Assembly (NCBI GenBank): GCA_030648255.1
Contig: JAUSHZ010000028.1
Span: forward strand, 1-52,369
Reading direction: 5' to 3'
From: a bacterium
GTDB lineage: Bacteria > Patescibacteriota > Minisyncoccia > Minisyncoccales > CG1-02-41-26
Length of the DNA: 52,369 bases
Part shown: piece after piece, positions 1,854-46,138 of the stretch
Position numbering within the stretch: position 1 is the stretch's first letter
Layout: the number at the start of each line of letters is the position of its first letter
Position numbers and translations under genes: made by a program
Notes under the pieces: model-generated
What the model was told of the DNA's origin: nothing
What the model saw: the letters and a program-made list of their open reading frames with translations, nothing else
The model's database searches: none

Positions 1854-2819
1854 ATGTTAACCCCTCAACAAATAAAAAAAATACTTCAAGAAAACGATAT
1901 TGCTGTTTTAAAAAAATTCGGGCAAAACTTTTTAATTTCAGAAAGTGTTTTAAATAAAATTGTCGCAACAGCCAATATAAAGCCAACAGACACTATTTTA
2001 GAAATTGGCCCAGGTCTTGGGGTTTTAACTTTTGAATTAGCAAAAAGAGCCAGCAAAGTAATCGCTATTGAGAAAGACAGAAAGATGTCAGAGATACTGA
2101 AAAAAAATCTGGCAGAAAAAAATATCTCTAATATTGAAGTAATAAACGAAGACGCGTTGGCTGTTGAAGCTCGGTTTTTAGAGCTGTTGAAGCTCGGTTT
2201 TAAGGGAGCCCAAAACCGAGCTTCCACAGCTCTGGAGCCCAAAACCGAGCTTCCACAGCAAAGCTACAAGCTCGTGGCAAATTTGCCATACAACATCGCA
2301 ACCGCTGTTATAATGAAATTTCTACAAAGCGAAAATCCACCCCAACGAATAGTAGTAATGGTGCAAAAAGAAGTAGCGCAGAGAATTGTTGCTATTTCTC
2401 CCCATATGAATAAATTGGCGATCTTTTGCCAGCTTTATGCAACGCCAAAAATAATTGATATTGTCCCCCCAGCCGCTTTTTGGCCCAAGCCAAAAGTTGA
2501 TTCTGCGATATTACAGTTAATTCCAAGAAACTCGGTTTTAGAAAGCTGTGGAAGCTCGGTTTTTAGGGATCCCAAAACCGAGCTTCAACAGCCCAACGCC
2601 TTAGAAAACTTGGTCAACCTCGGCTTCTCCCACCCTAGAAAAACCTTACTGAATAACTTCGCCAAACTCGGCGAAAAAGAAAAAATAGGCCAGTGGCTTT
2701 TAGAAAATAATATCCAGCCAAGTCAACGGCCAGAGACATTATCTATCCACAACTGGCTAAGCCTTGCAAAAAACATTGAATTAGTGGAATATGTTAATTT
2801 TATGCTAAAAAACACTTGA
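1854..2819 (+). CDS. ksgA: 16S rRNA (adenine1518/1519-N6)-dimethyltransferase KsgA/RsmA with extra inserted segments
   Basis: KKFGQNFLISESVLNKI, ILEIGPGLGVLT, LVANLPYNIATAVI, GFSHPRKTLLNN and RPETLSIHNWL motifs. Confidence 0.93.
   Translation: MLTPQQIKKILQENDIAVLKKFGQNFLISESVLNKIVATANIKPTDTILEIGPGLGVLTFELAKRASKVIAIEKDRKMSEILKKNLAEKNISNIEVINEDALAVEARFLELLKLGFKGAQNRASTALEPKTELPQQSYKLVANLPYNIATAVIMKFLQSENPPQRIVVMVQKEVAQRIVAISPHMNKLAIFCQLYATPKIIDIVPPAAFWPKPKVDSAILQLIPRNSVLESCGSSVFRDPKTELQQPNALENLVNLGFSHPRKTLLNNFAKLGEKEKIGQWLLENNIQPSQRPETLSIHNWLSLAKNIELVEYVNFMLKNT
2160..2259. repeat. Two nested palindromic elements inside ksgA, translated in frame
   Basis: GCTGTTGAAGCTCGGTTTTTA-[GAGCTGTTGAAGCTCGGTTTTAAGGGAGCCCAAAACCGAGCTTCCACAGCTC]-TGGAGCCCAAAACCGAGCTTCCACAGC. 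Confidence 0.88.
2529..2592. repeat. Palindromic element plus preceding half-element in the ksgA 3' half
   Basis: AACTCGGTTTTAGAAA then GCTGTGGAAGCTCGGTTTTTAGGGATCCCAAAACCGAGCTTCAACAGC. Confidence 0.85.
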
Positions 2820-2881: not shown

Positions 2882-4171
2882 ATGGCAGAAGAACAAGTTT
2901 TTATTAAGCGAGATGGTCAAAATAAAATCGCTCAACATTTAATTAACCAAAAAGAAATAACAGTTATTTTGGGCCCACGACAAGTTGGTAAAACAGTTTT
3001 ATTAAAACAATTAATGGAATGGCTCGTTAAAGAACAACAAATAAACCATAACGATGTTTTTTATTTTAACTTAGATATTATTCAGGACTGGGAAGCAGTA
3101 AAAGATCAAACCCAATTTATCAATTTTTTAAAAAGCCGTTCCCAAAAACAAAAAATTTATGTTTTCGTGGACGAAGCGCAAAAAGTTGAAAACCCAGGCG
3201 TTTTTTACAAGGGCGTATATGACAGCGACCTGAATGTTAAACTAATATTAACTGGCTCTGCCTCTCTTTATTTTTTTTCTAAAATAAAAGAATCTTTAGC
3301 TGGCAGAAAAAGAATTTTTTTCTTAAATCCATTTTCTTTTCAAGAATGTGTTTCTATAAAAAATAAAGCATTATTAAATGCATTAACGGGAAAAGAAAAT
3401 TTACCAGATTTTGATAAAGCCGAACTTAACGAAATTCTTAACGAATATCTTGTTTGGGGAGGATACCCCATGGTTGTCTTAACCTCAAACCCAGAGCAAA
3501 AAAACGCTGTTTTAGCTGATATTTATTCCAGCTATATTGAAAGAGATATTATTGGTTTTCTAAAGATTGATGATAAGTCTAAATTCACTAAAACCGTTAA
3601 ACTCCTAGCGAGCCAAATCGGGCAGTTAGTTAATTTAGGCGAGATATCAACTATAACCGAAATAGACCGAAGAACAATTTCTAGATATTTAAGTGTTTTA
3701 GAGGAAACATTTGTGCTTTATCAGCTTGCCCCTTATTTTAATAACCCTAGACAAGAGATTATAAAAAACCAGAAAGTTTATTTTTTAGATAATGGTCTAA
3801 GAAACTATCTCTTAGAAAACTTCCAACCATTCAATAAGAGAATTGACAAGGGTGCTTTATTAGAGAATTTCATTTTTCAAGAACTTTTTGCTTGTTCAAA
3901 AGATAATTTTTTTAATTTACATTTTTGGAGAACTAAACAAGGAGCTGAAGTTGATTTTATAATAGAACAAGGCCTAAAAATAACGCCAGTTGAGGTGAAA
4001 ACAACACTAAAGGTGCCGAAAATTTCGCTTGGGCTTCAAAGCTTTATTAAGAAATATAAACCAGCAAACGGCTTGATGGTTAATTTTTCTGGGCTTTCAG
4101 CAAAAGCAACTCTTGGAACCACTGAAGTCAACTTCCTCTCCCCAGCAAAAATAAAAAACTTTATTCATTAG
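2882..4171 (+). CDS. AAA ATPase of the AAA_14/DUF4143 family
   Basis: GPRQVGKTVLLKQL Walker A, YVFVDEAQKV Walker B, LTGSASLYF, C-terminal REQGAEVDFIIE-like nuclease-fold motif (TKQGAEVDFIIEQG...PVEVK). Confidence 0.88.
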   Translation: MAEEQVFIKRDGQNKIAQHLINQKEITVILGPRQVGKTVLLKQLMEWLVKEQQINHNDVFYFNLDIIQDWEAVKDQTQFINFLKSRSQKQKIYVFVDEAQKVENPGVFYKGVYDSDLNVKLILTGSASLYFFSKIKESLAGRKRIFFLNPFSFQECVSIKNKALLNALTGKENLPDFDKAELNEILNEYLVWGGYPMVVLTSNPEQKNAVLADIYSSYIERDIIGFLKIDDKSKFTKTVKLLASQIGQLVNLGEISTITEIDRRTISRYLSVLEETFVLYQLAPYFNNPRQEIIKNQKVYFLDNGLRNYLLENFQPFNKRIDKGALLENFIFQELFACSKDNFFNLHFWRTKQGAEVDFIIEQGLKITPVEVKTTLKVPKISLGLQSFIKKYKPANGLMVNFSGLSAKATLGTTEVNFLSPAKIKNFIH

Positions 4172-4173
4172 CC

Positions 4174-4260
4174 CAAAACCCCTCCCAACACCCAGAAACA
4201 TTATCTATCCACAACTGGCTATGTCTTGCAAAATCGTTTAAAACATTACACAATAAATAA
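4174..4260 (+). pseudogene. Orphan C-terminal fragment of ksgA
   Basis: Reads QNPSQHPETLSIHNWLCLAKSFKTLHNK*, matching KsgA PSQRPETLSIHNWLSLAK. 4192-4233 matches 2730-2771 with few mismatches. Confidence 0.8.
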
Positions 4261-11132: not shown

Positions 11133-11200
11133 AGCCAGCCGAGACCCGACCTCCCCAAAACTGAGCTCAAGATTTCTTGGAGGTCGGGTCTCCTCTGGCT
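11133..11200. repeat. Imperfect inverted repeat between the 724-aa and 791-aa genes
   Basis: AGCCAG-CC-GAGACCCGACCTCC ... GGAGGTCGGGTCTC-CT-CTGGCT. Confidence 0.8.
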
Positions 11201-38781: not shown

Positions 38782-38811
38782 ACGCAATTCCGACGATCGC
38801 TGGAATTGCGT
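38782..38811. repeat. Palindrome with CGATCG apex, upstream of the PaaX/Cas2-like gene
   Basis: ACGCAATTCC-GACGATCGCT-GGAATTGCGT. Confidence 0.9.
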
Positions 38812-38905: not shown

Positions 38906-39466
38906 ATGGCGAGAAAGTTTTCAAAAATTTCTTTGGATATTTTAAAGGTTTTGGCGGTAACCAGCTTATTTGTTGTTGCAGGGTCATCTCCTGGTTTTAT
39001 TAGGGCGCTTTATAAAGAATTAGGCAAAAGACAAAAATTTAAATCGTATAAAGCCGAGCAAGCTAAAAGAACGCTTGATAATCTAAAAAGATCAAAATTA
39101 ATTATCTTTAAAGAGAAAGACGGAAAATTTTCTGTTGAGCTAACCGAAAAAGGTAAAAAAGTGTTAAGAGAAGTTGATATTAGCGAGTTGAAAAACAAAA
39201 AGCCAGCTCAATGGGATGGGCTTTGGCGAATTGTTATTTTTGACATACCAGAGGGGAAAAAATATGGCCGAGGGGCTTTGCGAGATAAAATGAAAGAAGT
39301 CGGTTTCTACCAGTTGCAAAAAAGCGTTTGGGCATTTCCCTATGAATGCGAGAAGGAGATAGATTTATTAGTGGAGGTTTTTGATATTAACTCGTTTGTA
39401 AATATAATAACCGCAAAGAAAATAAAAGACGACGAAAAATTAAAAAAATACTTTAAACTTTCATAA
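38906..39466 (+). CDS. PaaX-like winged-helix protein with Cas2-like domain
   Basis: N-terminal wHTH, then WDGLWRIVIFDIPEGKKYGRGALRDKMKEVGFYQLQKSVWAFPYECEKEIDLLVEVF typical of PaaX central Cas2-like domain. Confidence 0.82.
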   Translation: MARKFSKISLDILKVLAVTSLFVVAGSSPGFIRALYKELGKRQKFKSYKAEQAKRTLDNLKRSKLIIFKEKDGKFSVELTEKGKKVLREVDISELKNKKPAQWDGLWRIVIFDIPEGKKYGRGALRDKMKEVGFYQLQKSVWAFPYECEKEIDLLVEVFDINSFVNIITAKKIKDDEKLKKYFKLS

Positions 39467-39468
39467 AT

Positions 39469-39498
39469 ACGCAATTCCTGCGATCGTCGGAATTGCGT
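39469..39498. repeat. Palindrome with CGATCG apex, downstream of the PaaX/Cas2-like gene
   Basis: ACGCAATTCC-TGCGATCGTC-GGAATTGCGT, reverse complement of the 38782 copy with one difference. Confidence 0.9.
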
Positions 39499-39555
39499 GT
39501 TTATAAATAATAAAAAATAAATATATTCTTAGTATATTTAATATTTAAGAAGGGT

Positions 39556-43817: not shown

Positions 43818-43834
43818 AAATTTAACTAACAAAA

Positions 43835-43874
43835 AACTAACACTTTTATAACGATCGTCATAAAAGTGTTAGTT
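43835..43874. repeat. Hairpin C of the cluster
   Basis: AACTAACACTTTTAT-A-ACGATCGT-C-ATAAAAGTGTTAGTT. Confidence 0.85.
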
Positions 43875-43897
43875 TTGAGTTTATTTGTAATTTTATT

Positions 43898-46084: not shown

Positions 46085-46138
46085 AAAGCTGTTGAAACTC
46101 GGTTTTTAAGGAGCCCCAAAACCGAGTTTCAACAGCTT
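46085..46138. repeat. Distal copy of the ksgA-type palindrome
   Basis: AAAGCTGTTGAAACTCGGTTTTTAAGGAGCCCCAAAACCGAGTTTCAACAGCTTT. Confidence 0.88.

Follow-up and report, generated by a model that had tools for sequence, protein, structure and literature searches.

Palindromic elements in the reading frame of ksgA

The DNA analysed here, hereafter the window, is the contig stretch 1-52,369 of an 847-kb genome assembled in 33 contigs (G000), and membership of the Candidate Phyla Radiation (CPR)/Patescibacteria fits the genome size of 0.85 Mb. Close to its start lies ksgA (rsmA; 1854-2819, plus strand), which codes for a protein of 321 amino acids and hosts short palindromic DNA elements at two sites within its reading frame. 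We describe these elements, their dispersal through the genome and their likely relationship to repetitive extragenic palindromic (REP) sequences and REP-associated tyrosine transposases (RAYTs). In profile searches KsgA matches TIGR00755 with 233.7 bits, far above the cut-off of 171, and PF00398 with 1.1e-56, and the frame is open from 1854 to 2819, so that the in-frame, stop-free insertion proposed in the original prediction holds. The two inserted segments, for which a comparison with relatives was proposed there, are both absent from 29 aligned KsgA sequences, including those of the two genomes of the same genus.

An element of the same 48-bp type, with perfect 21-bp arms, occupies the intergenic region directly upstream of ksgA (1790-1841; no strand is assigned to this or the following palindromes). 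Palindromes are also present at both places within ksgA where the original prediction had put them, with some change in their limits. The first (2160-2259) consists of two palindromes, one nested in the other: an outer element (2159-2260), with arms at 2160-2178 and 2241-2259, is split by an inner one lying in its loop (2180-2233), whose 22-bp arms are 95% complementary, and the whole site adds about 34 codons (amino acids 103-136). At the second (2529-2592) the palindrome covers only 2545-2592, and the adjacent AAACTCGGTTTT (2528-2539) is a lone half-arm, probably left by a decayed element. The peptide segments encoded by the inserts are AVEARFLGSPKPSFNS and, at the second site, SCGSSVFRDPKTELQQ. 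The 12-mer of the arm, AAGCTCGGTTTT, occurs 12 times in the window with at most one mismatch, against 0.5 occurrences expected, and none of 100 shuffled sequences reached this number. An AlphaFold2 model of the protein computed from the single sequence was discarded at a predicted local distance difference test score (pLDDT) of 40, and therefore supports no claim that the inserts form surface loops.

Of the frames of the 48-bp consensus, one is open, one contains TAG and one contains TGA, and most copies within genes are read in the first of these. The three exceptions (the inner element of ksgA site 1, ksgA site 2 and the copy in an elp3-like gene) each carry a single substitution that removes the stop codon: the inner element of site 1 has AAG in place of the TAG seen in most copies, whereas in ksgA site 2 and elp3 TGA is changed to TGG or GGA, site 2 reading TGTGGA where most copies have TGTTGA, a stop in that frame. 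Most other copies retain TTTTTAG and TGTTGA. However, TGTGGA is also found in two arms of ksgA site 1 that require no stop removal, and stop avoidance therefore does not account for every variant. Nesting is not restricted to ksgA site 1, since composites of a half and a full element are found in miaA, miaB and murD, and in a relative (G031) two families are nested at both ksgA sites.

Beyond the 3' end of ksgA there is an ATPase-like open reading frame (ORF; 2882-4171), past which a segment at 4186-4233 repeats the 3' end of ksgA (2724-2771) with 90% agreement; this looks as though the ATPase-like gene had entered at the ksgA end and duplicated the segment.

Distribution of the elements in the genome

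The further genome copies for which the original prediction proposed a search are numerous, and several are in frame in other genes. We listed 33 element sites in G000, studied on the sequence stretches around them, 11 of which lie inside ORFs: two in ksgA, one each in miaA, miaB, thrS, murD, eno and prmC, and the others in a 1726-codon ORF, in the elp3-like gene at a contig end and in a Y1 transposase gene. Three more sites provide the final residues and the stop codon (LLKLGF-stop or EKLGF-stop), at the C-terminus of eno, in a 503-aa ORF on contig C6 and in a short ORF on C9. The elements thus depart from the mostly extragenic location expected of REPs, and even so a smaller part of the sites is intragenic than the coding fraction of a compact genome would lead one to expect. 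In NCBIfam, KsgA, MiaA, ThrS, MurD and Eno score above the cut-offs of their specific equivalog models. MiaB and PrmC fall short at this level and reach the family models, MiaB/RimO and HemK, respectively, and the elp3 fragment is partial in the profile search. The miaB ORF (L061:5459-6547, minus strand) stops at profile position 358 of 429 and lacks the C-terminal part usual in MiaB, a truncation that may be real or due to a frameshift.

Copies take the form of short hairpins, of inverted pairs (short ones are found, for example, at C2:6611 and C9:2669) and of 48/49-bp doublets, the spacer of which, TTTTTAGGGAGCCCAAAA, is conserved. Units measure 22-49 bp, and the longest compound site about 106 bp. 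The sequence is specific to this lineage: the 13-mer TGTTGAAGCTCGG has 41 exact occurrences in G000 and none in 59 relatives, and for the spacer TTTTWAGGGAGCCCAAAA only G000, with 20 matches, exceeds a control in which the pattern was reversed, the other genomes being at control level, with two exact copies in the relative G001. A search for an exact 19-mer across 85,462 species (from which the own genome was possibly excluded) gave six isolated matches in unrelated phyla, close to chance, with no relative among them.

An assembly artefact was considered and rejected: the copies have unique flanks and are spread over several contigs, and the arrangement recurs, with other hairpins, in independent genomes. 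Contig C3 opens within the element in the elp3-like gene (L078:1-50), so that repeats may be interrupting the assembly and the number of copies may be underestimated.

The window holds a fourth element outside well-supported genes, a full 49-bp copy with the arm variant GCTGTTGAAACTCGG (46088-46136, no strand assigned), as well as palindromes of other kinds. At 11133-11200, within a 106-codon open frame, there is a palindrome of a different family (22-bp arms, GCCGAGACCCGACCTCC), with arms resembling the miaB palindrome of G002, a genome of the same genus. A strong palindrome, ACGCAATTCC..GGAATTGCGT, is present in two copies (38782-38811 and 39460-39507), and a perfect one with 22-bp arms lies at 43833-43876; both are unrelated to the ksgA elements.

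A Y1 transposase gene with the same hairpin

G000 has a single gene for a Y1 (HUH, single-tyrosine) transposase (C9:53009-53761), which scores over the PF01797 cut-off. An alignment of 27 sequences, 26 of them related ORFs, identifies its HUH motif (NHFH) and tyrosine motif (YIQV); at the guide-binding motif the RAYTs of this lineage have FQ in place of WQ, which is a comparison of motifs and not a classification. The gene is flanked by inverted 24-nt copies of the hairpin that are 100% complementary (L060:1474-1497 and 2269-2292); a third copy is part of its reading frame and is translated as TVEPELQQ. The short hairpin unit found here is TGTTGAA-CCCGAGC-TTCAACA, and the same sequence is thus dispersed through the genome, at the flanks of the transposase gene and in its interior. 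The 48-bp form has the arm CTGTTGAAGCTCGG in common with these flanks (13-14 nt), with TTTT and the spacer where the short form has TTCAACA.

Genes of the Y1 family were found in 31 of 60 genomes of the same order, G000 included. In an order-wide test, the coding sequences of 74 RAYT ORFs were compared with their own flanks, using mismatched pairs of ORF and flank as control. A stretch of at least 18 nt is shared with the own flanking hairpin in 44 of the 74, against 4 of 1918 mismatched pairs (0.2%; Fisher p ~2e-65); as related ORFs are not independent, this p-value is overstated, but the contrast is still large. Where the match is at least 14 nt long and the HUH motif could be located, the internal hairpin precedes this motif by 23-44 aa in 42 of 51 cases; in a minority of ORFs (L173, L338, L186, L163 and L340) the internal cognate hairpin lies about 85 aa after it. 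Among 28 ORFs from farther afield in the phylum, most are flanked by long inverted hairpins, and 7 contain an internal copy (15 nt or longer), against 2 of 756 mismatched pairs. The sequence of the hairpin differs from genome to genome while the arrangement around the RAYT recurs. The hairpin of G047, TTGACATCCGATGTCAA, has 23 copies, two of them in ksgA at the position of site 1, and it is also found on both flanks of the RAYT of that genome and inside it. The insert in thrS of G001 is identical to the flank of the RAYT of G001.

The same sites carry different hairpins in relatives

At the positions of the G000 inserts in miaA, miaB, thrS, murD, eno and prmC, relatives often have an in-frame palindrome of their own with another sequence, and some are empty at a given site (prmC in G002, eno in G001). 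Including ksgA, same-site palindromes were found in relatives for all seven host genes examined. The original prediction named homologous segments encoded by non-palindromic DNA in the KsgA of relatives as the case that would refute it; relatives do have segments at the insert sites, but these are mostly unrelated in sequence and often palindromic. In the ksgA genes, that of the window included, inverted repeats with arms of at least 12 nt fall in the two insert regions, which make up 18.5% of the gene, in 11 of 15 cases (binomial p ~6e-6, or 9e-5 without the two of the window itself), the limits of these regions having been chosen after the alignment was seen. A family of G002, CCGAGACCCGGTCT, is present at five sites, and ksgA, miaA and thrS hold three of these at matching positions.

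The miaB genes of G000 and G001 have a common loop, TTTTAAGGGAGCCCAAAA, and a trailing half-element at one site, which favours an ancestral insertion there, whereas the quite different hairpin families in thrS of G001 and G002 favour fresh insertion. Comparison with relatives gave no readable target-site duplication or exact empty site in the G000 host genes, because the relatives are too divergent or have inserts of their own.

Origin of the elements

In our view, the palindromes are most likely miniature, non-autonomous REP/REPIN-like elements (REPIN, REP doublet forming a hairpin) that would have been spread by the RAYT-type Y1 transposase. The transposase would cut the hairpin as single-stranded DNA and rejoin it elsewhere, and insertions within genes would persist where they fall in tolerant loops and the frame is kept open. 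For KsgA the inserts would be neutral, as tolerated peptide loops without a role. New copies may preferentially enter existing REP copies, which would give rise to the nested insertions, and therefore to sites that persist while their sequence is replaced in each lineage.

Several points weigh against this proposal. The 48-bp form lacks the closing TTCAACA and is not identical to the hairpin flanking the RAYT, so that its mobilisation by this enzyme has to be argued from the identity of the arm. The transposase has no match in NCBIfam (E ≤ 0.001) or in the PDB (E ≤ 0.1), nor any sequence match to the characterised TnpA-REP of Escherichia coli (PDB 4ER8) in a single-sequence search, which is weak evidence, and the GTAG/GTGG/CGTC foot tag is present in only 3 of 117 RAYT-flanking hairpins. 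Lastly, loop tolerance could by itself lead to occupancy of the same sites, with no targeting of REPs into REPs.

The lack of a full-length match between the 48-bp form and the RAYT flanks would also suit selfish palindromes of the kind of Rickettsia palindromic elements (RPEs) or miniature inverted-repeat transposable elements (MITEs), moved by an unknown or lost transposase, with the RAYT gene and its flanks merely another victim, and the in-frame, dispersed and palindromic character of the elements is indeed RPE-like. We consider this improbable, given that RAYT flanks and internal copy match the hairpin of their own genome in genome after genome, with a different hairpin each time, and that no other transposase is tied to the palindromes in G000, a genome that was not scanned for other transposase families. 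Less credible still is the idea that the inserts have a function in the protein, as adaptive loops for which the palindromic DNA would be secondary: their frame is indeed kept open in essential genes, and relatives have inserts at the same sites, but the encoded peptides are wholly different from one lineage to another and from one frame of an element to the next, identical DNA is present in intergenic regions and unrelated genes, and many relatives have no insert at all.

Within the REP/RAYT proposal, turnover at the same sites could result from tolerant loops, from homing into old copies or from concerted replacement. Tentatively, the RAYT may home into REP hairpins and replace them in place, such that sites in the RAYT gene and in core genes would be long-lived, with their sequence overwritten whenever the pair of RAYT and hairpin changes, and the copy within the RAYT would be a working part, a self-target or an autoregulatory hairpin. 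Similarly uncertain, and in our judgement rather doubtful as a general account, is that the insertions are ancestral, inherited vertically and later homogenised or replaced in concert instead of being newly inserted in each lineage; the common miaB loop and half-element and the single position of the internal copy in most RAYTs agree with it, whereas the relatives that are empty at a given site and the unrelated thrS hairpins do not.

Core enzymes of a very small genome have repeatedly accepted selfish DNA at the same places, with hairpins particular to each lineage, which amounts to a natural experiment on the tolerance of loops and on the co-evolution of a transposase with its target. Where proteins of this group have unexplained inserts confined to one lineage, a search for REP hairpins should precede any assignment of function.

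Comparison with known systems

In-frame intragenic REPs with GTAG or CGTC tags have been described in Opitutus, Rickettsia and other bacteria (Di Nocera et al. 2013, PMC3733652), which refines the suggestion in the original prediction that the element is possibly undescribed. As in that report, hairpins and inverted dimers lie in frame in unrelated genes, some supply the stop codon, and there is a link to a tyrosine transposase; in contrast, the G000 elements have neither tag, belong to a different lineage and are hosted by core translation, cell-wall and glycolysis genes. Different REPs at approximately the same site were reported there in one case, the recB of Xanthomonas, compared with all seven host genes examined here. 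New here are the untagged hairpin class in this lineage, the density of elements in essential genes and the turnover at the same sites across lineages, and our literature search found no report of the REP/RAYT phenomenon in CPR/Patescibacteria or Parcubacteria.

REPs inside tnpAREP genes are known from subclass 2.4 (2018, PMC6006769), where, as here, the cognate REP is in frame within the transposase gene and also on its flanks. In the lineage studied here the internal copy is placed differently (for the most part 23-44 aa ahead of the HUH motif, in a minority about 85 aa behind it), feet are lacking, and the guide-binding motif reads FQ rather than WQ. An FQ motif is described in that paper for subclass 2.1, which is reported to have no REPs, and the RAYTs studied here may belong to this subclass or form a new one. 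With REPINs (Bertels and Rainey 2011, PMC3116915) the G000 elements share inverted REP doublets with a spacer, genome specificity and the vicinity of a RAYT; unlike REPINs, which are almost all extragenic (14 of the 1,067 most abundant 16-mers overlap genes), a third of the G000 sites (11 of 33) are in ORFs, and copies are counted in tens, not hundreds.

The original prediction compared the elements with RPEs, the best known coding palindromes as summarised in PMC10969869 (citing Ogata et al. 2000, 2002). This analogy describes their behaviour well, since, going by that summary, both are in-frame, coding-tolerant palindromes in unrelated genes of a reduced genome, and RPEs are a functional analogue. 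However, the units are 22-49 bp here (about 106 bp at the longest site) compared with about 150 bp, the sequences are probably other ones, and REP/REPIN with a RAYT-like Y1 transposase is the better family, as G000 has such a transposase with matching flanks; RPE-4 and RPE-6 have themselves been equated with CGTC REPs (PMC3733652). The account in PMC10969869, as far as it goes, links no transposase to RPEs. Coding-tolerant palindromes, known mainly from Rickettsia and, on that account, not tied to a mover, would thereby gain a candidate transposase that is directly testable.
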